The notes below the pieces were generated by a model. It was not told the DNA's origin and searched no databases. It saw only the letters and a list, made by a program, of their open reading frames with translations. This document shows positions 9,373 through 35,881 of a DNA stretch of 36,873 bases, piece after piece. Every line of letters begins with the position of its first letter. The stretch's first letter is position 1. This stretch comes from Oceanospirillales bacterium. GTDB taxonomy: Bacteria > Pseudomonadota > Gammaproteobacteria > Pseudomonadales > Balneatricaceae. The position numbers and the translations under genes were made by a program. The stretch is taken from assembly GCA_018223185.1 (NCBI GenBank), contig JAAEYW010000036.1, positions 1 through 36,873 of the forward strand, read 5' to 3'.

Positions 9373-9441
9373 TAGTGTCTTATAAATATAGTGTTATAAG
9401 TATTGTGCTAGAAGTATTGTGTATAAGTACCATTCTATAAG
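9373..9441. repeat. Degenerate 14-bp tandem repeat in the pilD-coaE spacer
   Basis: Five units lie at 9373-9386, 9387-9400, 9401-9414, 9415-9427 and 9428-9441 (14, 14, 14, 13, 14 bp). Read on the minus strand the common pattern is CTTATAnCACnATA, for example CTTATAGAATGGTA, CTTATACACAATA and CTTCTAGCACAATA. The first unit in transcription order contains the pilD stop codon (TAG, 9437-9435). Confidence 0.8.
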
Positions 9442-10337
9442 TTTAGCAGTTGCAGATACCAGTCAGTCAGTTCATCGCCCCATAAAAGAGCGACCCATCC
9501 GGCACCCGCCAGGTAGGGGCCAAAAGGGATCGGTGTTTGTGATTCATGGCGACTGAAAGCGATCATTAAACCGCCCACTATCGCCCCAATCAGAGAGGAG
9601 ACCAGAATAATAAGGGGCAGCATGTCTGCTCCGGCCCAGGCTCCCAGCGCTGCCAGCAGTTTAAAGTCTCCATATCCCATCCCCTCTTTTCCGGTCAGCA
9701 GTTTAAACAGCCAGTAGACCGACCAGAGCGAGAGGTAACCCAGTACGGCTCCCCAGAGCGCAGAGGGCAGTGAGGTGAAATAGTCAAAGCTATTGAGAAT
9801 CAGACCGATCCAGAGCAGTGGCAGAGTGATTTTATCCGGCAGTAACTGATGATCGATATCGATAGCCGTCAGCGCAATCAGACACCAGCTGAAGAAGACA
9901 ACGGCAAAGGCGGCCAGATTAAAGCCGAGCTGCCAGACGATAAAGCCGGATATCAGAGCTGTTGCCAGCTCGATCAGCGGATAACGAAGTGATATCGCGC
10001 TTTTACAGCTACTGCATTTTCCACCCAGGATCAAAAAGTAGCTGATAAGCGGGATGTTTTCATACCAGCGAATCAGGTGGCCACAGTTCGGGCAAGTTGA
10101 GGCGGGCTGGGCCAGGTTGAAAGTCTCAGTCAGCTGTGAGGGCGCTGCCGGGTGCTCCGCTGGTGCTTCTGAGGAGTTCGGGTTTGCCGCCTCCTCAGCC
10201 ATTTGTAGCCATTCGCGCTCCATCATCAGAGGCAATCGATGAATGACTACATTCAGGAAACTGCCAACCATGAGTGAGAAAACAAAGGTGAGTGACACCG
10301 ACAGCCAGATATTCGCTGCAATCAGTTCGAAAAACAT
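9435..10337 (-). CDS. pilD: Type IV prepilin leader peptidase / N-methyltransferase PilD
   Basis: This 300-residue polytopic inner-membrane aspartyl protease removes the leader from type IV prepilins and methylates the new N terminus. The N-terminal cytoplasmic loop carries the tetracysteine zinc motif (CPNC and CSSC). The two catalytic aspartates sit in ALTAIDIDHQLLPD and in the GxGD motif GYGDFKLL. About seven or eight hydrophobic segments follow. The cytosolic loop contains a Pro/Ala/Ser-rich insertion (ANPNSSEAPAEHPAAPSQ). It lies downstream of pilC, separated by a tandem-repeat spacer, and is expected to process the PilA encoded nearby. Confidence 0.96.
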   Translation of the reverse strand: MFFELIAANIWLSVSLTFVFSLMVGSFLNVVIHRLPLMMEREWLQMAEEAANPNSSEAPAEHPAAPSQLTETFNLAQPASTCPNCGHLIRWYENIPLISYFLILGGKCSSCKSAISLRYPLIELATALISGFIVWQLGFNLAAFAVVFFSWCLIALTAIDIDHQLLPDKITLPLLWIGLILNSFDYFTSLPSALWGAVLGYLSLWSVYWLFKLLTGKEGMGYGDFKLLAALGAWAGADMLPLIILVSSLIGAIVGGLMIAFSRHESQTPIPFGPYLAGAGWVALLWGDELTDWYLQLLNL

Positions 10338-10363
10338 ATTTGTCAGATTCCGCTATCTTCTCT

Positions 10364-10460
10364 GAAGGTTCTTTATGAATAAGTTCTTTACGAACGTCTC
10401 GTTACGAGAGCTTCTTTACGAGCGTCCCGTTACGAGAGTCTCTTTACGAGGCGCTCATAC
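10364..10460. repeat. Degenerate 14-bp tandem repeat in the pilC-pilD spacer
   Basis: Seven units lie at 10364-10376, 10377-10391, 10392-10405, 10406-10419, 10420-10433, 10434-10447 and 10448-10460 (13, 15, 14, 14, 14, 14, 13 bp). The minus-strand pattern is close to GTAAAGAGACTCTC / GTAACGGGACGCTC. Alternate units match best, so there is also a 28-bp higher-order period. The first unit in transcription order contains the pilC stop TGA (10457-10455). Confidence 0.85.
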
Positions 10461-11681
10461 AACGTTACCCAGCTGGAAGATCGGCAGATACATCGCGATA
10501 ACCAGACCACCCACCAGAATACCCAGAATCGACATGATCATCGGCTCGATCAGGGTGGAGAGGTTATCAACGGCGTTATCCACCTCCTCTTCATAGTAGC
10601 TGGCGACCTTATCGAGCATCATCTCCAGAGAGCCTGCTTCCTCTCCAATAGCGATCATCTGCGTGGCCATAGGGGGGAACATGCCCGTCATTGTCACAGC
10701 ATTTTGCAGTGACTGACCGGTGGATACGCCGTTCTTGATCTGTATGATCGCTTTTTCGTAGACCACATTGCCTGATGCGCCTGCAGCCGATTCCAGTGCA
10801 TCGACCAGTGGAACACCCGCGGCAAAAGTCGTTGCCAGGGTCCGGGCAAAGCGTGCGATCGCTGAATTGTGCAGAATCTGGCCAATAATTGGCAATTTAA
10901 GCACCGATCTGTCTAACCACTCTCTGAACCCTCTGGATTTTTCATGGGCTTTAGTGAACGCGAAACCGGAAGCAACAATGGCGATCAGTGCAATAAACCA
11001 CCAGTCCTGAGCAATTTTGGACAGGCCCACGACAAACAACGTGAAGGCGGGCAGGTCTGCCCCGAAGCTTGAAAAAACGCTTTCAAACTGGGGTACAACT
11101 TTTATCAACAGAATTGCGGAAACCACCAGACCAACGACAATAACGGCGATCGGATAGGTCAGGGCTTTCTTGATTTTCTTTTTAAGGGTTTCAATCTTCT
11201 CTTTATAGGTTGCTATCCGGTCCAGCATGGTTTCCAGTGAGCCAGAGTTCTCACCCGCATGTACCAGATTACAGTAAAGATCATCGAAATATTTTGGGTG
11301 ACGCTCCAGTGCCTTGGCAAAGCTGGTGCCGCCACTAACATCGGATTTCAGGTCATAGATAACCTGTTTCATCTTGGCTTTTTCGATGCCGTTAGCGACA
11401 ATATCAAATCCTTGTAGTAACGGCACACCGGATTTCAGCATGGTGGCCGTTTGACGGGTAAACAGGGCGATATCCAGAGGCTTTATCGGCTTATTATGGT
11501 TGCTGAACATGCTGTAGGTTTGTTTCCGAACCTTCTTGGGCATAATCCCCTGTTTGCGCAGCATCGCTTTGGCTTCCGCCAGGTTTACCGCATTGATGGC
11601 GCCTTTGCTGTTATTTCCACTCCTGTCTTTACCTTCCCAATTAAATGTAAGAGGTGTTTTGTCTGTTGCTTTCTTAGCCAT
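10455..11681 (-). CDS. pilC: Type IV pilus inner-membrane platform protein PilC
   Basis: This 408-residue GspF/PilC-family protein is the inner-membrane platform on which the PilB and PilT motors act. Two homologous T2SSF cytoplasmic domains are visible: one beginning near residue 70 (LFTRQTATMLKSGVPLLQGFDIV) and the other near 275 (ARTLATTFAAGVPLVDALE). Hydrophobic segments lie near 170-195 and 210-240, and another at the C terminus. The length is normal. It is separated by 48 bp from pilB upstream and followed by pilD, the standard pilBCD order. Confidence 0.96.
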   Translation of the reverse strand: MAKKATDKTPLTFNWEGKDRSGNNSKGAINAVNLAEAKAMLRKQGIMPKKVRKQTYSMFSNHNKPIKPLDIALFTRQTATMLKSGVPLLQGFDIVANGIEKAKMKQVIYDLKSDVSGGTSFAKALERHPKYFDDLYCNLVHAGENSGSLETMLDRIATYKEKIETLKKKIKKALTYPIAVIVVGLVVSAILLIKVVPQFESVFSSFGADLPAFTLFVVGLSKIAQDWWFIALIAIVASGFAFTKAHEKSRGFREWLDRSVLKLPIIGQILHNSAIARFARTLATTFAAGVPLVDALESAAGASGNVVYEKAIIQIKNGVSTGQSLQNAVTMTGMFPPMATQMIAIGEEAGSLEMMLDKVASYYEEEVDNAVDNLSTLIEPMIMSILGILVGGLVIAMYLPIFQLGNVV

Positions 11682-11729
11682 CCGGTTGGTTTCCGTATAC
11701 AGGTTTAGATATTAATTAGATAGAAACAC

Positions 11730-13448
11730 TTAAAGTTTGATAACCCGGTTCATCTCCTCCAGGCTGGTAACGCCCTGGATTACTTTACGCAAGCCTGACT
11801 CTCTTAACGATCTGAAACCCTGCTGTTTAGCGGTTGCCAGAATATCAAGAGAGGTACCGTTATCCATAATCACCTGGGCAATTTCAGAACTCATGGCCAT
11901 GGTTTCATAGATACCCACCCGGCCTTTATAGCCCTTGTTGCATTTATTACAGCCTTCCTGATTATGTTCAAACAGGTTAAAACCGGTATTGATCTGATCC
12001 GCAGTGAAGCCCTCTTCTAACAGTGTCGCTTCCGGGATAGACACTGGCTTTTTACAGCCGGTGCATAAACGCCGGCCCAGGCGCTGAGCGATAATCATAG
12101 ACACTGATGTGGCAATATTAAATGCCGGAACACCCATATTGCGTAGTCTTGTCAGTGTTTCAGCGGCGCTGTTGGTGTGCAGGGTTGACAGTACCATGTG
12201 GCCGGTCTGGGCCGCTTTAATTGCGATCTCGGCGGTTTCCAGGTCCCGGATCTCACCCACCATTACCACACCAGGGTCCTGACGCAGGAAGGAACGTAGC
12301 GCTTCTGCGAATGTCAGGCCTACCTTGTTGTTTACATGTACCTGATTGATCCCCTCCAGGTTGATCTCTACCGGGTCTTCTGCGGTGGATATGTTGCGCT
12401 CAACGGTATTAAGGATATTCAGACCGGTATAGAGGGATACGGTTTTACCACTGCCGGTGGGTCCGGTAACCAGAATCATCCCTTGCGGTTTATGCAGCGT
12501 CTGCATGAATAACTCTTTCTGATCTTCGTCGTATCCCAGCGCTTCGATACCCATCTGCGCACTGGTGGGGTCGAGAATACGCAGCACCACTTTCTCTCCC
12601 CATAGGGTGGGCAGGGTGTTGACCCGGAAGTCGATTGCCCGGTTTTTGGAGATCTTCATTTTTATCCGGCCATCCTGAGGAACCCGGCGTTCAGAGATAT
12701 CCATCTGGGACATAACTTTAAGGCGGGCGCAGAGACGGGATGCCAGGTTCGCGGGTGGTTTGGCGACCTCCTGCAAAATACCATCGATCCGGCAGCGGAT
12801 GCGGTAGGATTTCTCATAGGGTTCGAAGTGGATATCCGATGCGCCTGTTTTTATGGCATCCAGTAGTATTTTGTTAACGAAGCGTACAATGGGGGCATCA
12901 TTTGCGGCATCTTCGCCGGTATCCTCCTGCTGCTCATGAGCGCCGTCATCGATCTCAAGATTGTCCAGATCTGCATCTTCAAGGCCCTCAAGGGCGGAGT
13001 TCTGCTCATCCAGAAAAGTGTCGATCAGATGGGAGAGTTTATCTTCCTCTACAATCACCCCTTCGGTGGTGGTGCCGGTATGGAACTTAAACTCATCCAG
13101 TGCCTGGATATTGGTCGGGTCGGAGATCGCGACATAAAGTCTGTTCTCACGTTTGATCAGCGGCAGGGCGTGGTGTTTGGTAATCAGCTTTTCATCGACT
13201 AAGCCCTGAGGCAGGGCTTCGAGATCGATCACATCGAGATCAAACAGGGGCATGCCGAACTCATCGGCCGCTGCCGCAGCAGCCCGGTAGGCACTCACCA
13301 GCCGGTTCTCGATAATATGGGCGATAAATGGCTTATTGTCTTTACGGGCGGATTTCAGTGCATCCATCGCTACATCGGATGAAAACACACCGTCATTAAC
13401 CAGTCGTCTGGCCAGACCGCTCAGAGGCTGAAAAGGTTGTACGCTCAT
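11730..13448 (-). CDS. pilB: Type IV pilus assembly ATPase PilB
   Basis: This 572-residue hexameric ATPase powers pilus extension. The N-terminal domain is the GspE/MshEN type. The ATPase core has Walker A GPTGSGKT at residues 329-336, the Asp and His boxes, and Walker B GVVMVGEIRDLETAEIA. The zinc tetracysteine CTGCKK and CNKCNKG follow near residues 455-500. Length matches Pseudomonas PilB (566). It heads the minus-strand pilBCD-coaE-yacG operon, back to back with pilA. Confidence 0.97.
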   Translation of the reverse strand: MSVQPFQPLSGLARRLVNDGVFSSDVAMDALKSARKDNKPFIAHIIENRLVSAYRAAAAAADEFGMPLFDLDVIDLEALPQGLVDEKLITKHHALPLIKRENRLYVAISDPTNIQALDEFKFHTGTTTEGVIVEEDKLSHLIDTFLDEQNSALEGLEDADLDNLEIDDGAHEQQEDTGEDAANDAPIVRFVNKILLDAIKTGASDIHFEPYEKSYRIRCRIDGILQEVAKPPANLASRLCARLKVMSQMDISERRVPQDGRIKMKISKNRAIDFRVNTLPTLWGEKVVLRILDPTSAQMGIEALGYDEDQKELFMQTLHKPQGMILVTGPTGSGKTVSLYTGLNILNTVERNISTAEDPVEINLEGINQVHVNNKVGLTFAEALRSFLRQDPGVVMVGEIRDLETAEIAIKAAQTGHMVLSTLHTNSAAETLTRLRNMGVPAFNIATSVSMIIAQRLGRRLCTGCKKPVSIPEATLLEEGFTADQINTGFNLFEHNQEGCNKCNKGYKGRVGIYETMAMSSEIAQVIMDNGTSLDILATAKQQGFRSLRESGLRKVIQGVTSLEEMNRVIKL

Positions 13449-13785
13449 TGTTCAGAGAATCCATTTTATCTGTTTGTATCGGCGACAGAGAGGATAGCTT
13501 AAGTTGATTGCTTCAATACGTATAGTAAGTTCATCTAAAGAACACTTAATATAAGTTAATCGCTTAACCTAAACTGCCTTGTATTATTATCTATTTGTAA
13601 AGTAACATCTATCGGTCGGTTTGAGAATCAACAGACGCTTGCTTCAGGTCACTGGACTGCCGTAAAAAATAGGTTACTATCTTACCTGGCTCGTATGGAG
13701 CAGGGATGAAGAGCCTTATGGCAAGGGAAGGAGTCGTTCGGAGCAAGGATGATGATGAATACTTTGCTCGCTGGAGAGATAACTC
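13449..13785. promoter_or_regulatory. Divergent pilB/pilA intergenic region (337 bp)
   Basis: No gene is visible. The region must hold the pilB promoter (minus strand) and the pilA promoter (plus strand). The part nearest pilB (13490-13610) is AT-rich. The part nearest pilA has a purine-rich leader ending in GGAGAGATAACTC before the ATG. The only clear motif is the sigma-54-like element listed separately. Confidence 0.6.
13687..13702 (+). promoter_or_regulatory. Candidate sigma-54 promoter for pilA
   Basis: TGGCTCGTATGGAGCA keeps the invariant GG and GC dinucleotides with exact 10-bp spacing. It differs from TGGCACG-N4-TTGCA at one -24 base and two -12 bases. pilA is sigma-54/PilR dependent in Pseudomonas, which makes a -24/-12 element plausible. 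It lies 83 bp upstream of the ATG. Confidence 0.45.
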
Positions 13786-14217
13786 ATGAAGAGCACTATT
13801 AAAAAACAACAGGGTTTCACCCTTATTGAATTGATGATCGTTGTGGCGATTATCGGTATTCTGGCGGCGATTGCGCTGCCTGCGTACCAGAATTACACCA
13901 ATAAAGCTAAGTTTACTGAAGTTGTTGTAGCGACCTCGTCTATCAAAACTGCTTTTGAAGTAGCTTTTGCTGAAGAAAGCACTTTAGCTTCTGCAGCAGT
14001 TAATGCAGGAGTTGCTGCCGCTGTAGCTGATGCAAATGGTCAGGGCGGCTATGTCGCATCAGTTGTAATCGCAAGTGCTGGGTCACCAGGTCAGATTACG
14101 GCTACATCTCAGGATATTACCACCACTGCTACCACGTATATTTTGACTCCTTCTATTACCTCAAATACTGTTCAGTGGGCTAAGAGCGGTACATGTGTTG
14201 CGGCAGGATGGTGTTAA
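13786..14217 (+). CDS. pilA: Type IV major pilin PilA
   Basis: This 143-residue prepilin has a short basic leader [10 protein letters not shown], cleaved by PilD after G10. It is followed by the N-methylated phenylalanine and the class IVa helix [20 protein letters not shown] with the conserved Glu at position 5 of the mature protein. The C terminus holds a cysteine pair (CVAAGWC) that could form a short disulfide loop, much smaller than the D-region loop of P. aeruginosa strains. The globular part is Ala/Thr/Ser-rich. It has a strong ribosome site (GGAGAG) and its own terminator, consistent with a highly expressed monocistronic gene. Confidence 0.96.
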
Positions 14218-14253
14218 CCATTTGTTAGAGTTGTCTTGTTAATTTTCTTGATT

Positions 14254-14280
14254 AAAAACCCGGTTCTACCGGGTTTTTTT
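14254..14280 (+). terminator. Intrinsic terminator after pilA
   Basis: The arms AAAAACCCGGT (14254-14264) and ACCGGGTTTTT (14268-14278) form a stem with a TCT loop and a following T run. It lies about 37 bp after the pilA stop. Confidence 0.93.
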
Positions 14281-14356
14281 AGGCTTATTGTTTATTTCAA
14301 TATTCAGCATTTTGTTGTCTTATTAACATTCTTTTACATGAAATAAAGTTAAACTA

Positions 14357-14716
14357 ATGAACAAAAAAACAATCCTGATTATCCTTATAGCCATTACTGC
14401 AACCGTCACGTATTACCTCTACGAAGAGCCTCTGCCTGTTGAAAAGCGGGCTGTCGTTGAAGCGGATCTGGCGGCTCAGCCTGATAAGTACCCAGCGACC
14501 CCTGTATGGTGGTCAGATGGCGGTATTCTGGCGATCGGTATGTTGCCCCGTGAGGGTGGTGAAAAGCGCAATGACAGCGCTAAAGAGATCTGTAATATTC
14601 TCTGGAAGAATGATGTCAATAAAACCGTGGTTGAGGTTTACGATATTCTTCAGATTCAGAAAAGTGATGAGTGGGAGCTGATTGGTGCTGCGGATTGCCG
14701 GCGCCAGGCTCAGTAA
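14357..14716 (+). CDS. Small membrane-anchored protein of unknown function
   Basis: This is a 119-residue open frame that I do not recognise. Residues 2-22 (NKKTILIILIAITATVTYYLY) form a basic start followed by one hydrophobic helix, i.e. a signal anchor or uncleaved signal. The remainder is soluble and moderately charged, with a central PVWWSDGGILAIGMLPR motif and a DVNKTVVEVYDILQIQ segment. There are two cysteines: C75 (KEICNIL) and C114 (AADCRRQ). The likely topology is N-in with a periplasmic domain. It lies between pilA and nadC, after the pilA terminator, so it is probably a separate unit. The ribosome site is poor. Codon use resembles neighbours and the frame is well composed, so I take it as a real gene. 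Confidence 0.65.
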   Translation: MNKKTILIILIAITATVTYYLYEEPLPVEKRAVVEADLAAQPDKYPATPVWWSDGGILAIGMLPREGGEKRNDSAKEICNILWKNDVNKTVVEVYDILQIQKSDEWELIGAADCRRQAQ

Positions 14717-14723
14717 ACACAGT

Positions 14724-14888
14724 GTCGGTAGGCTTAGATTCCAGTAGGCTCAGGCTTTAGTAAGCTTAGGCTAAGAAAACTACATCTCCCGAAAACTCTA
14801 TGTTCGTAATCTAAGGTTCGGTAATCTAAGTTTCAATAAACCTGAGCCGGGTTACCTGAGATCTGATGCCTGAGTTTTAAGCTCTAAG
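14724..14888. repeat. Degenerate 14-17-bp tandem repeat downstream of the small protein gene
   Basis: Clearest units are 14803-14816 (TTCGTAATCTAAGG), 14817-14830 (TTCGGTAATCTAAG), 14831-14846, 14847-14860 (CCGGGTTACCTGAG), 14861-14874 (ATCTGATGCCTGAG) and 14875-14888 (TTTTAAGCTCTAAG). Looser earlier units (TAGGCTTAG, TAGGCTCAGG, TAAGCTTAGG) start about 10 bp after the stop codon. Nothing coding is seen in 14717-15100. The remainder holds an AT-rich stretch with the 13-bp palindrome ACCCAAATTGGGT (14954-14966) and a terminator. Confidence 0.6.
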
Positions 14889-15020
14889 CTCGATGACTTT
14901 TCCAATGGTTCAGGCTTTTTATAATAAATTAAACGTTAGTTTGCTGAATTTTTACCCAAATTGGGTATTCTGTTTTAAACGTCTATTATTTCCTTTTTGG
15001 AATCAATAAGCCGTGTTTAT

Positions 15021-15057
15021 GAAAAAAAAATCCGCCTATCAGGGCGGATTTTTTTAT
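15021..15057. terminator. Bidirectional intrinsic terminator downstream of nadC
   Basis: An A run, the arms AATCCGCC and GGCGGATT around a short TATCAG loop, and a T run make a hairpin usable on both strands. On the minus strand it ends nadC. On the plus strand it would end any transcript coming from the small protein side. Confidence 0.88.
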
Positions 15058-22458: not shown

Positions 22459-24159
22459 TTATCCATCCTGTATTTTTTTCAGGCGATAGGCCAGCGCCGG
22501 ACGTGTCAGTCCGAGTTTACGTGCCGCTTTTGATACATTATTGCTGCACTGAGACATCGCCTCTTCAATTAATTGCTGTTCAAGTTGTTCGAGACTGAAG
22601 TTTTCGACCAGCAGACTCTCAACCGGCTCAGTGTTCGCTGGAGTGGATTTAGGGAGTTCTTCACAGAGTTGTCCCCGGCCACCAATGATATTCAGTGGAT
22701 GAGAGGGTTCAGACAGCGAGGGAAAGAAGCCCGCCATGCTGATAGTTTGATTGTTTTCGGTCAGAATAACGCCTCGTTCAATCATGTTTTCCAGTTCGCG
22801 AATATTTCCTGGCCACTTGTACTGGACGAGTGCCTGCATCGCCTTATCAGAGATGCCAGCTGTTTTTTTATTGTACAGAGTGCAGTATTTTTTCAGGAAG
22901 TGTTCGGTCAGCAACGGTATATCTTCGGTGCGGTCGCGAAGCGGGGGAATATGCACAGGATAAACATTTAAACGGTAAAACAGATCTGCACGGAAGCGAC
23001 CCTCCTGCACCGCGGTTTCCAGATCTTCATTGGTGGCGGCGACCACCCGGACATCGATTCGCCGGGTGCGGTTGTCTCCGACCCGCTCAAACTCTGATTC
23101 CTGCAGAACTCTCAACAGTGATGCCTGCGCTCTTGGGGTCAACTCGATCACTTCATCAAGAAAAATAGTGCCGCGGTGCGCCCGTTCAAACTTACCCTCA
23201 CGGGATTGCGTTGCACCCGTGTACGCGCCTTTTTCTACTCCGAATAATTCGGCTTCTATCAGGTCAGGAGGGATGCAGGCACAGTTGACGGCAACAAAGG
23301 GTTTGTCAGCACGGTCACTGGTTGTGTGCAGGCCCCGGGCAACAATCTCTTTACCGACGCCGGTTTCGCCCTGTAGCAGAACGCTCACCTTACTTTTTGA
23401 GGCTTTACGTATCAGGTGGCAGACATTTTTAAACGCTGCGGAATGCCCGACGCTGTTATACAGCAGATCTTCCTCTGCATCACTACTGCGAAACTTATCT
23501 TTCAGAACGCTGACTTCATCCTGCAGGGCCAGCAGCTGTTCAATTATTGGATCGGGAAGCAGGTATTTTTCCATCTCTTCGGAATCGTCCCAGTCTTCGG
23601 CCGGACGTCCCTCGATATGACAGTGATCAGCTCCGGTACCGGCGCACTGAGTTTCCCTGAATATGATCTGACGGTTCATATAATAGGTTGAAAAACCACT
23701 GGCATAACCGATCAGTGTCCAGCATACGGGGACGTCAGAATTGCCAAAATTTGACAGATGAGTTTCTACTTCATGGGAGTTGTACCAGTCAAAAGAACCG
23801 AAGAAATGATGGTTATCTTCGTCGAACTCCAGTGAAATAGGGATTACTTTTACCATCCCTTTAATGGCATGAAGCTGAGGTCCTGCCATAAACACTTCTT
23901 CAGCGGTCATATCCGGGCGAACTTTTTCAGCCAGTTCTGCATCGCGCCAGCCGGTATGGTAACCAAAACGCATCAGGAAGCCTTTCGCTCTCTCTACCCC
24001 CAGTGTCTGGATCAGTTCGTTTCGCAGTAGTCCCATAACCGCAGAGTGGATTAATAGCATTCGCTGTTCATTCAGCCAGATTTTCCCCTCTTCATTGTCA
24101 AAACGGATCTGTTCTAAGAGATCCTGAACGTCAGGAAGCTTAGGTTGTAATTCGGTCAT
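22459..24159 (-). CDS. dmpR: Phenol-responsive sigma-54 activator DmpR/XylR family
   Basis: This 566-residue enhancer-binding protein has an N-terminal XylR_N/V4R sensor (about residues 15-210). The V4R part holds YHTGWRD and the cysteine-containing ECTGTGADHCHIEG-like stretch. A linker follows, then an AAA+ domain with Walker A GETGVGKE at 264-271 and the sigma-54 contact loop GAYTGA at 311-316 (GAFTGA in most relatives). FLDEVIELTP and the R-finger region come next. A Fis-type helix-turn-helix closes the protein (NVSKAARKLGLTRPALAYRLKKI). Direct binding of phenols by the sensor is established for DmpR. It is divergent from dmpKLMNOP, which starts at a consensus -24/-12 promoter, so that operon is the evident target. 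Confidence 0.95.
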   Translation of the reverse strand: MTELQPKLPDVQDLLEQIRFDNEEGKIWLNEQRMLLIHSAVMGLLRNELIQTLGVERAKGFLMRFGYHTGWRDAELAEKVRPDMTAEEVFMAGPQLHAIKGMVKVIPISLEFDEDNHHFFGSFDWYNSHEVETHLSNFGNSDVPVCWTLIGYASGFSTYYMNRQIIFRETQCAGTGADHCHIEGRPAEDWDDSEEMEKYLLPDPIIEQLLALQDEVSVLKDKFRSSDAEEDLLYNSVGHSAAFKNVCHLIRKASKSKVSVLLQGETGVGKEIVARGLHTTSDRADKPFVAVNCACIPPDLIEAELFGVEKGAYTGATQSREGKFERAHRGTIFLDEVIELTPRAQASLLRVLQESEFERVGDNRTRRIDVRVVAATNEDLETAVQEGRFRADLFYRLNVYPVHIPPLRDRTEDIPLLTEHFLKKYCTLYNKKTAGISDKAMQALVQYKWPGNIRELENMIERGVILTENNQTISMAGFFPSLSEPSHPLNIIGGRGQLCEELPKSTPANTEPVESLLVENFSLEQLEQQLIEEAMSQCSNNVSKAARKLGLTRPALAYRLKKIQDG

Positions 24160-24466: not shown

Positions 24467-24482
24467 TGGCACAGCCGTTGCT
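24467..24482 (+). promoter_or_regulatory. Sigma-54 promoter of the phenol hydroxylase operon
   Basis: TGGCACAGCCGTTGCT is a full match to TGGCAC-N5-TTGC with GG and GC correctly spaced. Transcription should start near 24493, about 30 bp before dmpK. The adjacent divergent dmpR supplies the expected activator. Confidence 0.93.
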
Positions 24483-30231: not shown

Positions 30232-30277
30232 TGGTTTAAAAGCTCTGTTCGAAATGTTTATTGTAAAATAATAATAG

Positions 30278-30305
30278 ACAATGAGTAAAATAAACGCGTC
30301 ATTGT
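30278..30305. promoter_or_regulatory. Inverted repeat in the LysR/doxX divergent promoter region
   Basis: ACAATGA (30278-30284) and TCATTGT (30299-30305) are separated by 14 bp in an AT-rich 137-bp gap, and the symmetry extends outward to ATA/TAT with one mismatch. It lies between the divergent genes, as expected for a LysR operator, and contains T/A-rich half sites. Confidence 0.5.
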
Positions 30306-30368
30306 TTATATTTTAAAATAATTCAGAATATCCTCACAGATCATTAATAAACAGATGAGGATAACTCG

Positions 30369-30779
30369 ATGAATACTTCTCCTGCCTATGCAGCAACACT
30401 GCTGCGCATTGCGCTGGGTACCATGTATCTGGCACACGGTTTGTTGAAGCTGCTTGTCTTTACTCCGGAAGGCACGGCTGGCTTTTTTAGTTCACTTGGA
30501 CTGCCTGGATTTTTCGGTCCTGTCACCATGGCTTTGGAAATCGCTGGTGGGGTTGCGCTGATTCTGGGTGTTTATGCCCGTTGGGTTGCTGTAGTGCTGA
30601 TCCCCGTTCTATTGGGTGCCGTTATCCTGGTTCATGGTGCGAATGGCTGGGGCTTTGGTAATCAGGGCGGCGGCTGGGAATATCCGGTATTTTTAATCGC
30701 GGCTTCTGTCGTTCAGTTTTTACTGGGTGATGGTCGCTATGCCGTTACACAGCAAAAGACAGAGAGTTCTGCTGTTTAA
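30369..30779 (+). CDS. DoxX-family integral membrane protein
   Basis: This 136-residue protein has four hydrophobic segments: around 10-30 (LRIALGTMYLAHGLLKLLVF), 50-72 (ALEIAGGVALILGVYARW), 75-93 and 105-122. The early LRIALGTMYLAHGLLKL and the ALEIAGGVALILG motif are typical of the DoxX/YphA family. DoxX proteins have been linked to oxidoreductase complexes, thiosulfate:quinone reduction and redox stress, but the function of this subgroup is unknown. It leads the operon divergent from the LysR gene. A terminator-like hairpin follows, so it may be expressed more than the genes behind it. Confidence 0.88.
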   Translation: MNTSPAYAATLLRIALGTMYLAHGLLKLLVFTPEGTAGFFSSLGLPGFFGPVTMALEIAGGVALILGVYARWVAVVLIPVLLGAVILVHGANGWGFGNQGGGWEYPVFLIAASVVQFLLGDGRYAVTQQKTESSAV

Positions 30780-30790
30780 AGCTGATGAAT

Positions 30791-30821
30791 AAGCTCCGCA
30801 TTCCAGTTGCCGGAGCTTTTT
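30791..30821 (+). terminator. Terminator-like attenuator between doxX and the hydroquinone reductase gene
   Basis: AAGCTCCG (30791-30798) and CGGAGCTT (30811-30818) pair around a 12-base loop and run into T's (to 30821). It begins 11 bp after the doxX stop and 12 bp before the ribosome site of the next gene. Some read-through is likely. Confidence 0.6.
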
Positions 30822-30844
30822 GTATTAACCGCAGGAGTGCAACT

Positions 30845-31798
30845 ATGTTAGTGAATGGCGTGTGGCAAAGTAAATGGGACCCGGTTCAGAAAAAAGATGA
30901 GCAGGGGCGATTTATACGTCAAAGCAGTACATTCAGAAAAACGATCAGTCCGGATCGTATCGCAGCGGTAAAGAGTGGTGATATTGAAACGTTGGGGGTC
31001 CGGTTATATGTGGCGTATATCTGTCCCTGGGCAACCCGTACACTGATCGCCAGGTCTTTACTGGGCTTAGACGAGCTGATACCTGTCAGCATTGTCGATC
31101 CACAGCTGAGTGACAGTGGGTGGCGGTTTAACGGATATCCCGGAAGTACGCCGGCTCAGCAGGAGTCGATAACCTATATCCATCAACTGTATACACAGGC
31201 TGATCGCGAATATAGCGGACGGGCAACGGTGCCGGTCCTATGGGATATGGCAGATAACACTATTATCAATAATGAATCTGCAGATATCATCAGACTATTT
31301 AATAACGATCTTCGTTTATTGCACGCTTCAGAAGTCGATCTGGCTCCTGAGTCACTATTACACGAGATAGATCGCTTTAATGAACGAATCTACAATACGC
31401 TGAATAATGGTGTTTATCGGGCAGGCTTTGCCTCCTCTCAGGGGGCATATGAAGAAGCTTATGCCGACCTGTTTACAACATTAGACTGGCTGGAACAGCA
31501 TTTTGAAAAACAGCAGTATGCAGTCGGCGATCAGCTTACAGAAAGTGATATCCGGTTGTTTGTGACGCTGGTTCGCTTTGATGTGGCATATTATGGGTTA
31601 TTCAAAACGAACAAAGCTCAGATAGCTGACTATCATAATATTTCGGACTATATGGACCGGTTGTTAAAGATTCCTGCCTTTAGCAAAAATACTAATATTG
31701 ATCATATAAAGGCAGGTTATTACTCCATCAAAGCGCTGAACCCTACTGGTATTGTTCCTGCCGGGCCAGAGCTGCGCTGGTTTGATTATCTGAAATAG
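30845..31798 (+). CDS. Glutathionyl-hydroquinone reductase (Xi-class glutathione transferase)
   Basis: This 317-residue enzyme belongs to the YqjG/ECM4/PcpF family, which reduces glutathionyl-hydroquinones to hydroquinones using glutathione. The catalytic Cys is C60 in the signature YICPWATRT, and VPVLWD with NNESADIIRLFN of the thioredoxin-like domain follows. The C-terminal helical GST domain includes NNGVYRAGFASSQGAYEEA (about 199-217). I chose ATG 30845 (MLVNGVWQSKWDP), with AGGAG 7 bases upstream. An ATG at 30785 would run through the hairpin. Likely role: rescue of quinone-glutathione adducts formed from catechols. Confidence 0.92.
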   Translation: MLVNGVWQSKWDPVQKKDEQGRFIRQSSTFRKTISPDRIAAVKSGDIETLGVRLYVAYICPWATRTLIARSLLGLDELIPVSIVDPQLSDSGWRFNGYPGSTPAQQESITYIHQLYTQADREYSGRATVPVLWDMADNTIINNESADIIRLFNNDLRLLHASEVDLAPESLLHEIDRFNERIYNTLNNGVYRAGFASSQGAYEEAYADLFTTLDWLEQHFEKQQYAVGDQLTESDIRLFVTLVRFDVAYYGLFKTNKAQIADYHNISDYMDRLLKIPAFSKNTNIDHIKAGYYSIKALNPTGIVPAGPELRWFDYLK

Positions 31799-31807
31799 GA
31801 GGCCCTC

Positions 31808-32590
31808 ATGCCATTAACTTCAGCTCCGGTTATGTTTATCGGTCACGGTTCCCCCCGATGGGCGCTGTCCCCCGGCGAAGCCGCTGCCCGTTTACAGGAG
31901 TTCAGTGTTTTCTTTAGTCAGGTAAAAGCGCTGCTGGTGATATCCCCTCACTGGATCTCCCGTGGAATGCAGCTGACAGCATCCCCTGAACCGGAAACGA
32001 TTCATGATTTTGGTGGCTTTGAAGAGGCGCTTTATCAACTGCAATACCCTGTTGCCGGGAGCCCTGTGCTAGCGCGTCATATTCAGTCTGTATTGCAGGG
32101 TCAGGGGGTAGAGGTTTCACTGAATGAACAACGAGGTTTAGATCATGGTGCCTGGGTGCCGCTACTGCATATGCTGCCGGATCACAAGATCCCTGTGTTG
32201 CAGCTTTCCCTTGATGCCGCTTCAACCCCTGCGTCTCTTGTAGCACTGGGGGAGACGTTAAAGAGCCTTCGCAGTGAAGGCGTCGCGATTATCGCTTCCG
32301 GTAGTCTGACCCATAACCTTTACCATATAGGGGATGAGCACGGATCCCCTCTGGACTATGTCGTACGGTTTCAGGCCTGGGCCCGGGGGCAGGTGATGGA
32401 ACGGAATATTCGTGCTCTGAGTCAGCCACATCTTGAATCTGAAGATTTTGCTACGGCACACCCAAGTGCTGAGCACTATCTGCCCCTGTTGATTGCTATG
32501 GGAGCCAGTAAAGAGACAGATCAGCTCTCTGTATTAGAGAGTCCGGTGTTGTATGAGGCACTGTCGATGGAGTCCTATGGATGGAACTGA
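31808..32590 (+). CDS. LigB/DODA-family class III extradiol ring-cleavage dioxygenase
   Basis: This 260-residue member of the YgiD/4,5-DOPA dioxygenase family carries likely metal and catalytic histidines in MFIGHGSPRW (H13), ISPHWISRG, IHDFGGF, DHGAWVPLLHM and GSLTHNLYH. Members cleave catechol-type rings with a non-haem iron, or bind zinc. The natural substrate of the bacterial enzymes is usually unknown. It overlaps neither neighbour; the start follows the reductase gene stop by 9 bp, with AGGAGGCCCTC before the ATG, so both are cotranscribed. It is unrelated in fold to the catechol 2,3-dioxygenase encoded downstream. Confidence 0.9.
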   Translation: MPLTSAPVMFIGHGSPRWALSPGEAAARLQEFSVFFSQVKALLVISPHWISRGMQLTASPEPETIHDFGGFEEALYQLQYPVAGSPVLARHIQSVLQGQGVEVSLNEQRGLDHGAWVPLLHMLPDHKIPVLQLSLDAASTPASLVALGETLKSLRSEGVAIIASGSLTHNLYHIGDEHGSPLDYVVRFQAWARGQVMERNIRALSQPHLESEDFATAHPSAEHYLPLLIAMGASKETDQLSVLESPVLYEALSMESYGWN

Positions 32591-32632
32591 TGAAATAGTT
32601 AACTGATCGTGACGATTATTCATTATTTGATT

Positions 32633-32665
32633 AAAAGGCCTTGCTTACGAGCGAGGCCTTTTTTT
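32633..32665 (+). terminator. Intrinsic terminator after the LigB-type dioxygenase
   Basis: The arms AAAAGGCCTTGCT and AGCGAGGCCTTTT pair (one G-U) around a TACG loop and end in a T run. It closes the doxX operon and isolates the meta-cleavage operon, which begins with its own promoter. Confidence 0.93.
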
Positions 32666-32741
32666 ATCACCAGGTCTTTGTTTGTTAATAAATTATTTAA
32701 AAACAATAGATTAAGTTTATTTAATAATGTTTTTGATTTGC

Positions 32742-32757
32742 TGGCACAGTGGTTGCT
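32742..32757 (+). promoter_or_regulatory. Sigma-54 promoter of the meta-cleavage operon
   Basis: TGGCACAGTGGTTGCT is a full -24/-12 match (TGGCAC-N5-TTGC), as good as the one before dmpK and sharing TGGCACAG with it. The predicted start is near 32768, about 34 bp before the ferredoxin ATG. The upstream 70 bp are AT-rich and follow the terminator. Confidence 0.92.
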
Positions 32758-32801
32758 GTTAAATACAGTGCAATTAATTGAGAGCGTGAGAGGAGACTCC
32801 T

Positions 32802-33146
32802 ATGCCAGAGCAGGCTTCGCATTTGATTACGGTGGTTAATCGTAATCAAGACTTTAAATGTGCAGAAGACCAGGTGTTGCTGATTGCGATGGAGCGGATG
32901 CGTGCTAATGCGATCAATGTTGGATGTCGTGGCGGAGGTTGTGGTGTTTGTAAGATTCGTATTCTTCAAGGGGAATATGAATGCAAACGGATGAGCAAAG
33001 CTCATATATCTGAAACTGACCAGCAGCAGGGTTATGTTCTGGCCTGTCGGGTTTTTCCCCGAACCGACCTTGAGATTGAAGCTGATCATTATCAGGCACA
33101 GGAATCTTGTTACGCGAATGAAGACGGCAGGATAGCGTCCGGCTAA
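32802..33146 (+). CDS. dmpQ: Catechol dioxygenase-reactivating [2Fe-2S] ferredoxin (DmpQ/XylT)
   Basis: This 114-residue plant-type ferredoxin has cluster cysteines C42, C47, C50 and C82 in NVGCRGGGCGVC and LACRVFP. XylT/DmpQ re-reduces the active-site iron of catechol 2,3-dioxygenase after inactivation by oxygen or substituted catechols. The next gene is that dioxygenase, the usual order. AGGAG precedes the ATG at 32802. It is the first gene after the second sigma-54 promoter. Confidence 0.93.
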   Translation: MPEQASHLITVVNRNQDFKCAEDQVLLIAMERMRANAINVGCRGGGCGVCKIRILQGEYECKRMSKAHISETDQQQGYVLACRVFPRTDLEIEADHYQAQESCYANEDGRIASG

Positions 33147-33194
33147 ACAATCAAAGCAGTAGAACAATAAAAGCAAAGTGCAGAGGAAAGTGAG

Positions 33195-34118
33195 ATGAGA
33201 AAAGGTGTGATGCGTCCCGGACATATACAGATCCGGGTTTTGGATGTTGAAGAGGCTCTGAAACACTACCGTGATCTGATGGGCCTGATTGAAGTTGAGC
33301 GTGATAGTCAGGGACGGGCTTATCTTAAGGGCTGGACCGAAGTGGATAAGTTCTCTGTTGTCCTGCGGGAAGCCGATGAGCCGGGTATGGATTTTGTTGG
33401 CTATAAAGTGCTGGATAACCAGACGCTGGCAAAACTGCACGGTGAACTGATTGAGTATGGCTGCAATGTTGAAGAGATTCCTGCGGGCGAGCTGAACGGT
33501 TGTGGTCGTCGTATTCGTTTTGATTCTCCTACCGGCCATATGTTTGAGATCTTTGCCGAGAAAGAACAAACCGGTAAATGGGGATTGTCAAACGTTAACC
33601 CTGAAGCCTGGCCCCGTGGTCTGACCGGTATGAAAGCGACTCGCTTTGACCACTGTCTGCTGTATGGACCAAACATCGCAGGCACTCTGGATCTGTTCCG
33701 TAATGTGTTGGGCTTTGAGTTGGCTGAGCAGGTGCTGGATCCGGAAGGAACCCGTATTGCCGGATTCCTGACCGTTGGTATGAAGGCCCATGATGTTGCA
33801 TTTATTGAGTGCCCTGAGCCGGGTAAATTCCATCATGCCTCTTTCTTCCTCGAAACCTGGGAAGATGTGTTGCGCGCTGCCGACCTTATCTCCATGGAGG
33901 ATGTTTCTCTGGATATCGGCCCAACCCGTCACGGCCTGACCCATGGTAAGACAATCTACTTCTTCGACCCGTCCGGTAACCGTTCAGAGGTATTCTGTGG
34001 TGGTGATTATCACTATCCCGATCATGAGCCGGTCACCTGGAAAGCAGAAGATCTGGGTAAGGCTATTTTCTATCATGACCGCGTCCTGAATGAACGTTTC
34101 CTGAGTGTTTTGACTTAA
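33195..34118 (+). CDS. dmpB: Catechol 2,3-dioxygenase (DmpB/XylE)
   Basis: This 307-residue class I extradiol dioxygenase cleaves catechol to 2-hydroxymuconic semialdehyde with Fe(II). The three iron ligands are at their canonical numbers: H153 (FDHCLLYG), H214 (KFHHASFF) and E265 ([12 protein letters not shown]). Other family markers are [13 protein letters not shown] at the N terminus and [17 protein letters not shown] near residue 247. The start has AGGAAAGTGAG just upstream. The stop TAA (34116-34118) lies inside the first unit of a 14-bp tandem repeat that fills the start of the spacer. Confidence 0.97.
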
Positions 34119-34195
34119 GAGCTTTGACTTAAGAGCTTTGACTTAAGAGTTCTGATTTAAAGAGCTCTGAGTTGAGAGCTCTGATTTAAGTGATC
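34111..34195. repeat. 14-bp tandem repeat overlapping the dmpB stop codon
   Basis: Six units lie at 34111-34124, 34125-34138, 34139-34152, 34153-34167, 34168-34181 and 34182-34195. The first two are identical (TGACTTAAGAGCTT). The others drift: TGACTTAAGAGTTC, TGATTTAAAGAGCTC, TGAGTTGAGAGCTC, TGATTTAAGTGATC. The first unit holds the last base pairs of the coding region plus the stop. Divergence rises with distance from the gene. Confidence 0.93.
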
Positions 34196-34215
34196 AGTCC
34201 CGATAATTAAAAAAA

Positions 34216-34276
34216 GGCCGCTCTGTTCTCCGAACATAAACGGAGTGGCCATGTGTGGCGGAGTGACTATCCCGCC
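34216..34276 (+). other. Hairpins in the dmpB-dmpC spacer
   Basis: GGCCGCTC (34216-34223) can pair with GAGTGGCC (34243-34250). Alternatively CTCCG (34228-34232) pairs with CGGAG (34241-34245). A further repeat TGGCGG...CCGCCA lies at about 34256-34276. No T run follows, so termination is unlikely; processing or stability control is possible. Confidence 0.5.
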
Positions 34277-34355
34277 AAATATAGTTCTATTGTCTGTGGT
34301 TCTTTAAAGCTGCGAGTGCCAGACAGATTTACCTCTGAGATTAGCGAGTACAGCC

Positions 34356-35816
34356 ATGCACGAATTTAAAAACTTTATTAATGGTGAATTTGTCACCAAT
34401 GCCAGCGGTAAGACCTTTGAAAACCGTAACCCTGTCGATAACAGCCTGCTGGGCAGGGTTCATGAAGCGGGTCAGCCTGAGGTGGATGCAGCGGTGAAAG
34501 CCGCCAAGGCAGCGATGAAAGGCCCCTGGGGCAAAATGACTCAGGCTGAGCGGATCAAACTGCTGGATAAAGTGGCCAGCCGTATCAATGAGCGTTTTGA
34601 TGAGTTTCTCGATGCTGAGTGTAAAGACACCGGTAAGCCACACAAAATTGCCTCCCATATCGATATTCCCCGGGGTGCGGCAAATTTTAAGGCGTTTTCC
34701 GAAACCCTGGCGAACCACCCCACCGAAGCGTTCAAACTGGATACGCCGGATGGTCGTGGTGCGCTCAACTATGGTCACCGTACCCCTAAAGGGGTGATCG
34801 CCGTGATCAGCCCCTGGAACCTGCCGCTGCTGCTGATGACCTGGAAAGTCGGTCCGGCACTGGCCTGTGGTAACACCGTGGTGGTTAAGCCTTCCGAGGA
34901 AACCCCGGCCACTGCAACCCTGCTGGGTGAGGTGATGAACGAGTGTGGCGTGCCTGAGGGGGTTTATAACGTGGTACATGGTTTTGGTCCTGACTCGGCC
35001 GGCGCCTACCTGACCGAACACCCGGATGTGAATGCCATTACCTTTACCGGTGAAACCCGTACCGGCGAGATCATCATGCGCGCGGCTTCTGTGGGCCTTC
35101 GCAATATCTCTCTGGAGTGCGGTGGTAAGAACCCGGGTATTGTTTTTGCCGACTGCGATATGGACAAAGCGATCGAAGGCACGATGCGCTCGGCATTTGT
35201 TAATTGTGGCCAGGTTTGTCTGGGTACCGAGCGTGTGTATGTCGAACGTCCGATCTTTGAGGAGTTTGTACAGCGCCTGAAAGAGGGCGTTGAAAAACTC
35301 AGGCTGGGTGTGCCTGAAGACCCGGAGGTGGATTTTGGCCCGCTGGTCAGCCAGGAACACAAAGAAAAAGTGCTGTCCTATTACCGCCTGGCGGTCGAGG
35401 AGGGGGCAACGGTGGTGATCGGCGGTGGAGTCCCCGAGATGGGTGAAGCGCTGAATGCCGGCGCCTGGGTCGAACCGACCATCTGGACCGGCCTGGCCGA
35501 TGATGCCCGTGTCGTCAAAGAGGAGGTGTTTGGTCCCTGCTGTCATATCCGTCCTTTCGATACCGAAGAAGAGGTGATCGAACTGGCGAACGATACCAAA
35601 TATGGTCTGTCCGCGGCGATCTGGACAGAAAACTCCGCCCGGGCTTCCCGTGTGGCCGAAGCGATGGATGTCGGTATCGCCTGGGTGAACAGCTGGTTCC
35701 TGCGCGATCTGCGAACCGCCTTTGGTGGGGCGAAGGAATCAGGCATCGGCCGCGAAGGCGGGGTGCACGGTCTGGAATTTTATACCGAACTGAAAAATGT
35801 CTGCATCAAGCTGTAG
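34356..35816 (+). CDS. dmpC: 2-hydroxymuconic semialdehyde dehydrogenase (DmpC/XylG)
   Basis: This 486-residue NAD-dependent aldehyde dehydrogenase oxidises 2-hydroxymuconic semialdehyde to 2-hydroxymuconate (4-oxalocrotonate branch). The catalytic E254 (SLECGGKNPG) and C288 (NCGQVCLGTERVYVE) are present, together with TFTGETRTGEIIM and PWNLPLLLMTWKVGPALACGN. Length and family features match DmpC/XylG. The ribosome site is weak. The spacer from dmpB is 237 bp, unusually long for this operon. A 13-bp repeat begins at its stop codon. Confidence 0.95.
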   Translation: MHEFKNFINGEFVTNASGKTFENRNPVDNSLLGRVHEAGQPEVDAAVKAAKAAMKGPWGKMTQAERIKLLDKVASRINERFDEFLDAECKDTGKPHKIASHIDIPRGAANFKAFSETLANHPTEAFKLDTPDGRGALNYGHRTPKGVIAVISPWNLPLLLMTWKVGPALACGNTVVVKPSEETPATATLLGEVMNECGVPEGVYNVVHGFGPDSAGAYLTEHPDVNAITFTGETRTGEIIMRAASVGLRNISLECGGKNPGIVFADCDMDKAIEGTMRSAFVNCGQVCLGTERVYVERPIFEEFVQRLKEGVEKLRLGVPEDPEVDFGPLVSQEHKEKVLSYYRLAVEEGATVVIGGGVPEMGEALNAGAWVEPTIWTGLADDARVVKEEVFGPCCHIRPFDTEEEVIELANDTKYGLSAAIWTENSARASRVAEAMDVGIAWVNSWFLRDLRTAFGGAKESGIGREGGVHGLEFYTELKNVCIKL

Positions 35817-35881
35817 CCGTCAACAAGTTTAGCCAACAGTTCTGGCAAAGAACCCTGGCAACGACCTCTGGCAAAGAGAGA
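35814..35881. repeat. 13-bp tandem repeat starting at the dmpC stop codon
   Basis: Units are 35814-35829 (16 bp, starting with the stop TAG), then 13-bp units TAGCCAACAGTTC (35830), TGGCAAAGAACCC (35843), TGGCAACGACCTC (35856) and TGGCAAAGAGAGA (35869). The array fills the gap up to the ribosome-site region of dmpE. Confidence 0.75.

Follow-up and report, generated by a model that had tools for sequence, protein, structure and literature searches.

The window, i.e. the whole stretch of DNA analyzed (36,873 nucleotides), is from an Amphritea-like genome, and the genus comparisons below are with Amphritea and its close relatives. Five of its spacers display a short tandem periodicity, as the first-pass annotation had proposed; the best lags are 14, 14, 16, 14 and 13 bp, and none of 1,500 dinucleotide shuffles reaches the score of any one of these spacers. 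A comparison spacer at positions 36680–36722 is non-periodic (979 of 1,500 shuffles equal or exceed its score). TRF reports arrays at positions 9376–9446, 10385–10450, 14802–14834, 34111–34190 and 35842–35877. The window has no Rfam match at the gathering threshold, and a promoter and terminator consensus scan of positions 33900–36800 gives no more hits than shuffled sequence.

Array 1 (9376–9446, minus strand) consists of about four copies of a 14-bp unit (TACTTATAACACAA-like). It spans the stop codon of pilD (9435–9437) and extends toward coaE. Array 2 (10385–10450, minus strand) has a 28-bp period made of alternating 14-bp half-units, CTCGTAAAGAAACTCTCGTAACGAGACG, and starts 4 nt past the pilC stop codon (10455–10457). 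Spacer 14724–14888 is the weakest of the five and holds two differing short arrays. Array 3a (14728–14772, plus strand) lies directly 3′ of the stop codon of the 14357–14716 open reading frame; its 16-bp unit (GTAGGCTTAGATTCCA-like, about three copies) is found by the lag-16 test and by direct reading, is not reported by TRF, and its periodicity begins 11 nt past the stop. Array 3b (14802–14834, plus strand) has 2.3 copies of a 15-bp unit (GTTCGTAATCTAAG) by TRF and sits 85 nt past the same upstream stop. Array 4 (34111–34190, plus strand) has the 14-bp unit TGACTTAAGAGCTT in 5.6 copies by TRF and six by eye, and contains the stop codon TAA (34116–34118) of a catechol 2,3-dioxygenase-like gene. 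Array 5 (35821–35877 by the lag test, 35842–35877 by TRF, plus strand) has about three copies of the 13-bp unit CTGGCAAAGAACC and separates an aldehyde dehydrogenase-family gene from an FAA-hydrolase-family gene; it begins 25 nt past the upstream stop by TRF and 4 nt past it by the lag test. The first-pass annotation had the first unit include or begin at the stop codon in four of the spacers. This is strictly the case in two (9373–9441 and 34111–34195), whereas the others begin 4–25 nt beyond it.

The arrays are not confined to the window. A sample of 836 kb (18% of the source genome) shows 30 arrays in 490 gaps, compared with 0.67 in shuffles (TRF score of at least 50, period 10–30). Shuffled spacers were the check proposed in the first-pass annotation, and as an equal density is absent from them the finding stands. 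The mode of the period in this sample is 14 bp, and 43 of 65 non-redundant arrays have a unit length of 13–15 bp when TRF periods of 20 or more are halved. Copy numbers by TRF range from 1.9 to 9.6. Periodicity at lag 7 is seen in one gap, with 0.3 expected.

Expressed per kb of spacer, array density at a score of at least 50 is 0.27 in the source genome, 0.16 in G003, 0.14 in G001, 0.09 in G009 and 0.04 in G015; outside the genus it is 0.05 in the outgroup G022 and 0.02 at 20 Pseudomonas pilD loci. Under the rules of the placement survey the values are 0.34 for the source genome, 0.25 for G016, 0.17 for G003, 0.16 for G001, 0.15 for G009, 0.11 for G007 and 0.03 for G015, which ranks the source genome first among the seven genomes with broad sampling. 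The surveys differ in context, gap limits and score cut-offs, and their counts vary accordingly; the sampled stretches are contig starts plus fixed steps rather than random draws. Density was sampled in 10 of 17 genus genomes, three of them only around the window orthologues: G008 (45 kb), G010 (20 kb) and G011 (40 kb) give 0.43, 0.89 and 0.46 per kb, but these are small samples with two arrays each and are left out of the ranking for that reason. The arrays extend beyond the genus. Two Marinobacterium loci have three arrays in 7.2 kb, and among 71 named pilD loci (of 80; loci below 8 kb were dropped) five of ten arrays are outside Amphritea and Marinobacterium.

Array density tracks the number of gene 3′ ends that flank a gap: 0.451 arrays per kb in convergent gaps, 0.243/0.219 in co-directional gaps and 0.073 in divergent gaps. 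Divergent gaps make up 26.9% of gap sequence and hold 6 of 68 arrays (p = 2e-4). The genes were called with a simple purpose-made hexamer caller, which may have assigned some gaps to the wrong type. Enrichment exactly at the stop codon is modest. In the placement tests, which use co-directional arrays only (37 of 41), a stop codon or gene end is overlapped by 11 of 37 arrays where 6.1 are expected (p = 0.03). The proposed tie to gene ends is thus upheld for the 3′ end at the level of the class but is modest for the stop codon itself. At two loci (L017:16830 and L219:12481) the duplications plainly copy the tail of a gene including its stop codon. A function as backup stop codons was considered and rejected, as co-directional arrays show no clear excess of them (0.075 versus 0.066 in permuted arrays, sd 0.006).

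Spacers and coding sequence differ sharply in exact tandem runs. In source-genome spacers their density is 24.3 per 100 kb and the periods fall into every class modulo 3; in coding sequence it is 1.7 per 100 kb, and the period is divisible by three in 11 of 12 runs. Exact coding runs of period 9–24 number 8 in 709 kb of G000; the outgroup, Pseudomonas and mixed loci together have 16 over 899 kb. In-frame coding duplications are therefore not raised, although a generally faster duplication should raise them too; duplication may thus be limited to spacers, or selection on coding sequence may hide it.

Spacers orthologous to those of the five window arrays mostly have no array. Of 12 relatives, G009 has a related array in the spacer of array 1, G010 a different one and G005 two 14-bp copies; the other nine have none there. 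Array 2 (pilC–pilD) is absent from all 12, three of which have called gaps that include coding sequence, and its absence was seen again when seven of the 12 were re-examined. At the position of array 3, the stop codon is the site of a different array in A. atlantica (G016), G008 has a 17-bp array of 2.1 copies and five others have none. Shorter relatives of array 4 are seen by eye in G008 and G009 but not in G007 or G011; TRF at a score of 45 calls none in these four. G009 has one copy related to the array 5 unit (TTCAGCCAAGAG, by eye) at the same place. The comparison spacer 36680–36722 has a single copy of TATTTAGAGCTTAGG in the source genome (36698–36712, plus strand), about two units in G009 and three in G008, as judged by eye from the orthologous spacers.

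The C14 spacer displays repeated related units in the source genome and in six of 11 relatives. The TRF period is 13 in the source genome, G009, G013 and G011, 26 in G015 and 15 in G016, and G004 has a few related copies that TRF does not call. At most one unit-like copy is present in G008, G007, G005 and G014, and none in G010. Counted by eye, the source genome has about ten units and G009 about nine. The called downstream neighbor of this spacer looks doubtful. For the C12 locus, the 10 loci tried from other species yielded no orthologous spacer. Single-copy ancestors were judged by eye from aligned spacers, with no tree, and this reading suggests that a single local unit gives rise to each array in place and that arrays turn over between species. 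With the spread of arrays over the sampled genome, it supports the earlier proposal of a local process acting repeatedly.

Array 4 has a paralogous array on contig C23. The C33/C23 pair shows one gap column over 72, although 15% of the columns differ, and nothing in it suggests fast change in unit number. In 11 arrays of period below 20 with four or more units, identity between units is 0.82 at distance 1, 0.80 at distance 4 and 0.63 at distance 9, the last being one pair. Growth from one end was rejected, since first and last unit pairs are equally alike (8 versus 8 of 18 arrays). An alternation of A and B units came from 17 halved arrays (TRF period 20–32), is not seen in the 11 arrays below 20 and was also rejected.

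The units had been described as unrelated between loci. Their sequences and periods do differ by locus, but 13 of the 61 non-homologous arrays have the hexamer AGAGCT in common. A motif search finds a 10-bp core, AAGAGCTCTT, in 14 of the 61 (37.5 versus at most 19.9 in 12 column-permuted controls); it is missing from the other 47. In 17 genus genomes, pairs of AAGAGCT at array spacing number 65, compared with three for the reversed control, and the linkers between them differ (hand sums); G008 has 22 such pairs and the source genome seven. AGAGCT is not a dispersed motif, as its frequency outside arrays about matches composition, and among non-array spacers the core is found in none in the source genome and in three in G015 (control mean 0.6). 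In the C14 spacer a related core appears by eye to be kept while the period shifts from 13 in the source genome to 15 in G016. In a class-wide search with three cores, 33 matches occur in 10 of 369 genomes and the reversed control gives 16 matches in seven genomes; 144 other genomes of the order have 101 core pairs versus 70 in the control (all hand sums). As reversed controls also give matches elsewhere, it is in this genus alone that the core is conspicuous. Longer likenesses also occur: the L222 array has matches of 44–67 bp at 81%–89% in G008, G010 and G012 and is 78% identical over 59 bp to the L214 array of the same genome, and for array 4 there are matches to the array alone in G002, G016 and G008.

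RNA structure and dyad symmetry were rejected as common features. Against column-permuted controls, which keep the array periodicity, 65 arrays show no gain in fold (mean z −0.18, SE 0.12) and no excess of dyad symmetry (p = 0.11), i.e. nothing beyond the periodicity. Against dinucleotide shuffles, the 34111 array (z −3.2) and the 10385 array (z −2.4) do fold better. The sense strand looks A-rich if convergent and divergent arrays are counted in, but this disappears in co-directional arrays (A–T skew −0.001) and was discarded as a feature.

The arrays probably arise by repeated tandem duplication of about 14 bp, retained where a change of length is harmless, i.e. in 3′ spacers, and then eroded by point mutation. 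A stretch of about 10–22 bp, most often 13–15, near the 3′ end of a gene and sometimes with its stop codon, would be duplicated head to tail by replication slippage or strand-switching; one or two units would be duplicated again and the copies blurred by point mutations. As translation ends at the first stop codon, extra copies past it would be harmless and would remain in 3′ spacers. Within genes, almost all surviving periods would be whole numbers of codons, and arrays near promoters and ribosome sites would be removed. The rate or the retention of duplications would be raised in this genus, and duplication would be biased to sequences with the AGAGCT core. The enrichment, the period, the 3′-end bias, the codon filter and the core come directly from the tests above; we infer the slippage or strand-switching step, the neutrality of the arrays and the reason for the AGAGCT bias. 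Selection for spacer length, also offered in the first-pass annotation, finds no support here that would set it apart from neutral retention. Counting against this origin, a neutral and sequence-blind process leaves the core, the 44–67 bp likeness between loci and the related C14 arrays unexplained.

The arrays may be selected cis elements, each a core (AGAGCT or a near relative) plus a locus-specific linker, with copy number tuning a signal at the gene end that is read by a protein, or by the termination or decay machinery, on DNA or in the mRNA 3′ region. The core that beats all 12 permuted sets, its pairing across differing linkers, its frequency outside arrays, which is about that expected from composition, its absence from the non-array spacers of the source genome, its apparent persistence through the C14 period change and the folding of the 34111 and 10385 arrays against dinucleotide shuffles all agree with this. 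However the 47 arrays without the core, the lack of fold gain or dyad excess over column-permuted controls, the many orthologous spacers that have no array and the unclear stop codon enrichment in co-directional arrays make it unlikely. Slightly less likely is a spacer-confined process that is triggered by, or recognizes, an AGAGCT-type core near 3′ ends and copies in steps of about 14 bp, giving core-plus-linker arrays. If this were true, step and core would be traces left by a specific enzyme, or by a transcription–replication structure stalled at gene ends, and not by ordinary slippage.

Tandem arrays between operon genes, with a unit number that varies between species at one spacer, also recall hypervariable contingency loci (phase-variation VNTRs), in which quick change in unit number switches the adjoining gene. 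The degenerate units, the C33/C23 pair and the nearly equal C14 unit numbers of the source genome and G009 make this improbable. Marginally less likely is that copies of a dispersed repeat spread from spacer to spacer, whether MITE-, REP- or CRISPR-like or a unit type acquired by transfer. The core common to part of the arrays and the L222 and array 4 matches would fit, but units and periods vary by locus, most arrays have no common motif, and the orthologous spacers, read by eye, suggest growth from local units. Chance periodicity or an assembly artefact could be argued from the degenerate units and the weakness of array 3, but is scarcely credible: the shuffles already refute chance at the level of the class, and arrays are present in independently assembled genus genomes.

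The birth of short tandem duplications is poorly known because most arrays studied are already long and regular. In this genus dozens of arrays can be seen at various stages, from one to about ten units, in comparable spacers of many species. These staged arrays, the narrow step and the shared core make step length, the role of 3′ ends and sequence preference directly testable. Operon spacer length in these genomes can shift through array growth.

No description of this array class was found in searches of the PMC open-licence library. A CRISPR array has identical repeats with unique spacers of similar size between them; here the units abut, are 13–16 bp long and are degenerate. The 20–40-bp dispersed palindrome of REP/BIME elements has no counterpart, there being no dyad excess and no shared motif longer than the 10-bp core, which 14 arrays out of 61 have. 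Some arrays do match one another over 44–67 bp. Repeats of the archaeal Borg elements are perfect, A-enriched and about half in open reading frames, whereas the arrays here are degenerate and mostly in spacers, coding runs are rare, and co-directional arrays have no A/T strand skew.

Cyanobacterial STRR are among the prokaryotic heptanucleotide repeats. Fourteen is twice seven, but the present arrays are longer and degenerate, with a mode of 14 and locus-specific units rather than one 7-bp unit at many loci. An older heptanucleotide survey, as summarized in PMC4679880, covers units of 5–11 nt, proposes an origin by polymerase slippage and notes that repeats within genes tend to multiples of three. 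The account of marine Beggiatoaceae in that paper describes many intergenic sets of TAACTGA direct repeats, some of which overlap the upstream stop codon and which relatives can lack (PMC4679880). The likeness is in the many short intergenic direct-repeat sets of a marine gammaproteobacterium. As described there, the TAACTGA unit is a fixed 7 bp and lies mostly just upstream of start codons, whereas the Amphritea arrays have many units of 10–22 bp nearer the stop side. In a Burkholderia thailandensis selection, de novo head-to-tail duplications of 9–60 bp in a beta-lactamase gene are reported, some of which fit slippage at short direct repeats (PMC4169377); unlike the spacer arrays here, these are coding, selected and of two copies.

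The closest match is with bacterial minisatellites and VNTR loci. TRF finds several copies, head to tail, of units about 10 bp long or longer and, as in those loci, units exceed 9 bp, are intergenic and locus-specific, and vary in copy number between species. An E. coli survey that set minima of 20 bp for the unit and 90% for identity lists minisatellites in one table as a small class, 2%–4% of variable loci (PMC2884548). Phase-variable loci have near-identical units, whereas mean adjacent identity here is 0.82 or lower in arrays of at least four units. Unlike typical minisatellites, the arrays are strongly degenerate, have a narrow period with a mode of 13–15 bp, lie on the 3′ side and in about a quarter of cases display one core. 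Their frequent occurrence in short gaps after genes, here and in close relatives, suggests a tendency of these genomes to copy nearby DNA. The arrays are thus bacterial minisatellites of an unusual, 3′-end-biased type that is enriched in this genus.

The window is contig C33 (36.9 kb) of a 4.6 Mb genome in 43 contigs. By pilD, Amphritea atlantica DSM 18887 (82% identity) is the nearest relative with a species name, and 16 other genomes of the genus, among them G016, which appears to be that strain, are available for comparison. Spacers 9373–9441, 10364–10460, 14724–14888, 34111–34195 and 35814–35881 all display an array detected by the tandem-repeat finder TRF. The best periods in the lag test are 14, 14, 16, 14 and 13 bp, respectively, and in each spacer the lag score is reached by none of 1,500 dinucleotide shuffles, which upholds the periodic arrays described in the first-pass annotation. 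The array at 34111 can be read as six units and has the stop codon TAA inside its first unit (TGACTTAAGAGCTT). Genes flanking the arrays, as identified by Pfam, encode a dephospho-CoA kinase, a type IV prepilin peptidase, a type II secretion F/PilC-type protein, a quinolinate phosphoribosyltransferase, a catechol 2,3-dioxygenase-like protein, an aldehyde dehydrogenase and FAA-hydrolase-family proteins. A Pfam search with the open reading frame preceding the 14724–14888 array gave no match.

The window also contains a 110-bp unit at positions 7966–8382 (3.8 copies, 97% identity by TRF), with palindromes such as CGCTGCATCTTGCAGCG. Parts of it recur elsewhere in the genome, most often on contigs C41 and C12. 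By its appearance this repeat may be REP-like.

A first sample of 21 stretches (247 gaps) has 13 arrays with periods of 11–17 that reach a TRF score of 50, versus none in ten shuffled sets. The lag spectrum of the genome sample has its maximum at 14 and a harmonic at 28. The shuffled-spacer comparison proposed in the first-pass annotation comes out in favor of the arrays: a larger sample of this genome (836 kb, 490 gaps) has 30 arrays of period 10–30 versus 0.67 per shuffle, i.e. 0.27 per spacer kb. Slightly different rules give 34 arrays in 482 gaps, which by extrapolation scales to about 190 in the whole genome. Densities per spacer kb are 0.09, 0.04, 0.14 and 0.16 in the genus members G009, G015, G001 and G003, 0.05 in the outgroup G022 and 0.02 in 20 Pseudomonas pilD loci. 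Two small, erratic sets show 0.42 (two Marinobacterium loci, 3 arrays in 7.2 kb) and zero (three Neptuniibacter loci, 6.8 kb). The 71 named pilD loci of at least 8 kb have ten arrays in 131 kb: two in A. atlantica, three in Marinobacterium and five elsewhere.

Placement was analyzed with 68 arrays from ten genus members. Convergent gaps (46.5 kb) have 21 arrays, co-directional gaps 23 in 94.6 kb plus 18 in 82.2 kb, and divergent gaps (82.3 kb) six. The divergent share, 6 of 68, compares with 26.9% of the sequence (p = 2e-4). Co-directional arrays, of which 37 of 41 were usable, are closer to the upstream stop (relative position 0.396 versus 0.5, p = 0.015), and 11 of the 37 overlap a stop or gene end versus 6.1 expected. 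The bias persists without the 30 or 50 nt immediately preceding the next start. Thus the proposed anchoring at stop codons is real but modest, and avoidance of start regions accounts for part of the placement.

The units had been considered unrelated between loci. A motif search by expectation-maximisation in 61 arrays, homologous loci removed, found AAGAGCTCTT in 14 arrays with a score of 37.5 (12 column-permuted sets reach 12–20). AGAGCT is present in 13 of the 61; the highest count of any 6-mer in 60 permuted sets is 10. In addition, the array at sampled locus L222 has matches of 44–67 bp to array-like sequence at other loci. Unrelatedness therefore holds for most arrays, and a sizeable minority, mainly in the Amphritea-like genus, shares a single core joined to differing linkers. 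Away from the arrays there are 40 occurrences of AAGAGCT versus 37.9 expected. With up to one mismatch, AAGAGCTCTT has no occurrence in 91.8 kb of non-array spacer of this genome (control palindromes, mean 3.6) and 0–3 in six other genus members, where only G015 exceeds the controls (3 versus a mean of 0.6). AAGAGCT pairs at array spacing number 7 versus 0 for the reversed pattern in this genome and, summed by hand, 65 versus 3 in the 17 genus genomes and 101 versus 70 in 144 other genomes of the order. Arrays of AAGAGCT/AGAGCT with a 15-bp period also appear to exist in other families (G079:C380:5544–5610 and G304:C12:210912–211202), and in one of them there are long stretches of almost perfect units.

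Orthologous spacers differ in array content. At a score of at least 45, arrays are present in 5 of 31 gaps over the window and, among relatives, in 2 of 28 compared gaps in G009, 2/28 in G011, 2/24 in G008, 3/17 in G016, 0/12 in G015, 2/27 in G007 and 1/12 in G010. The pilC-pilD array is missing in all 12 relatives compared. In the pilD-coaE spacer, G009 has a related array, G010 has a different one and G005 has two 14-bp copies; nine other relatives have no array. At the 14717 spacer A. atlantica has an array with another unit, and G008 a short array. By eye, spacer 36680–36722 has a single unit in this genome; G009 has about two and G008 three. The catechol spacer, also by eye, has six units here and on the C23 paralogue. 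G008 has about three to four there and G009 about one and a half, while G007 and G011 have none; in none of these four relatives does TRF find an array at score 45. By eye, a spacer on contig C14 shows repeated related units here and in 6 of 11 relatives; the array is missing in the other five, and four of these (G008, G007, G005, G014) have at most one unit-like copy at the same place. A contig C7 spacer has 2.7 copies of CCGGTACTATTAGA, versus 2.1 copies of another 14-bp unit in G008; no array was found there in nine other relatives.

In several simple cases the end of a gene has been duplicated together with its stop codon, for example as a 22-bp copy at L017:16830 and as one of 20 bp at L219:12481. 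In this genome, exact tandem runs number 31 in 128 kb of spacer, with no rule of divisibility by three, and are rare in coding sequence (12 in 709 kb, 11 with periods divisible by three), where there is no increase over other bacteria. Unit identity in arrays with periods below 20 falls slightly with distance, from 0.82 to 0.80 over four units, with fewer pairs beyond; stepwise duplication predicts such a fall. The paralogous C33 and C23 arrays agree at 85% over 72 columns with one gap column; agreement is 94% across the final 200 coding nt and 80% over the whole gene. This pair has thus aged by substitution.

The paralogous catechol dioxygenase genes (33195–34190 and C23:66081–66220) lose similarity at the array end, as after a gene-conversion tract. 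A hairpin follows at 34216–34250 (GGCCGCTC...GAGTGGCC); by eye, its stem sequence differs in G008 and G009 and pairing seems kept, and a TTCTATTG-CTGTGGT-like element beyond it is common to relatives. Positions 24467–24482 and 32742–32757 match the sigma-54 promoter consensus exactly (two sites versus 0.03 expected). By Pfam, the former is upstream of genes including a phenol-hydroxylase-family protein, the latter upstream of catechol genes, and a XylR/DmpR-type activator is at 22459–24159.

The arrays might be functional, and those at 34111 and 10385 do fold better than ordinary shuffles. This is expected from repeats with some self-complementarity, and neither RNA folding nor dyad symmetry of the arrays exceeds that of controls with the periodicity kept. 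Function is therefore considered rather unlikely, and neutral retention of the arrays is rated above it.

The main text of a taxonomic genome paper on Amphritea (PMC9365125) contains neither of the words "repeats" and "intergenic". The nearest published cases are the TAACTGA repeats (PMC4679880), the Borg repeats (PMC9879509), the variable segments of E. coli (PMC2884548) and duplications arising de novo within a gene for beta-lactamase (PMC4169377). In the sections of these papers drawn on here, none of the four is of the degenerate, approximately 14-bp, locus-specific and 3′-end-biased type that the present arrays display.
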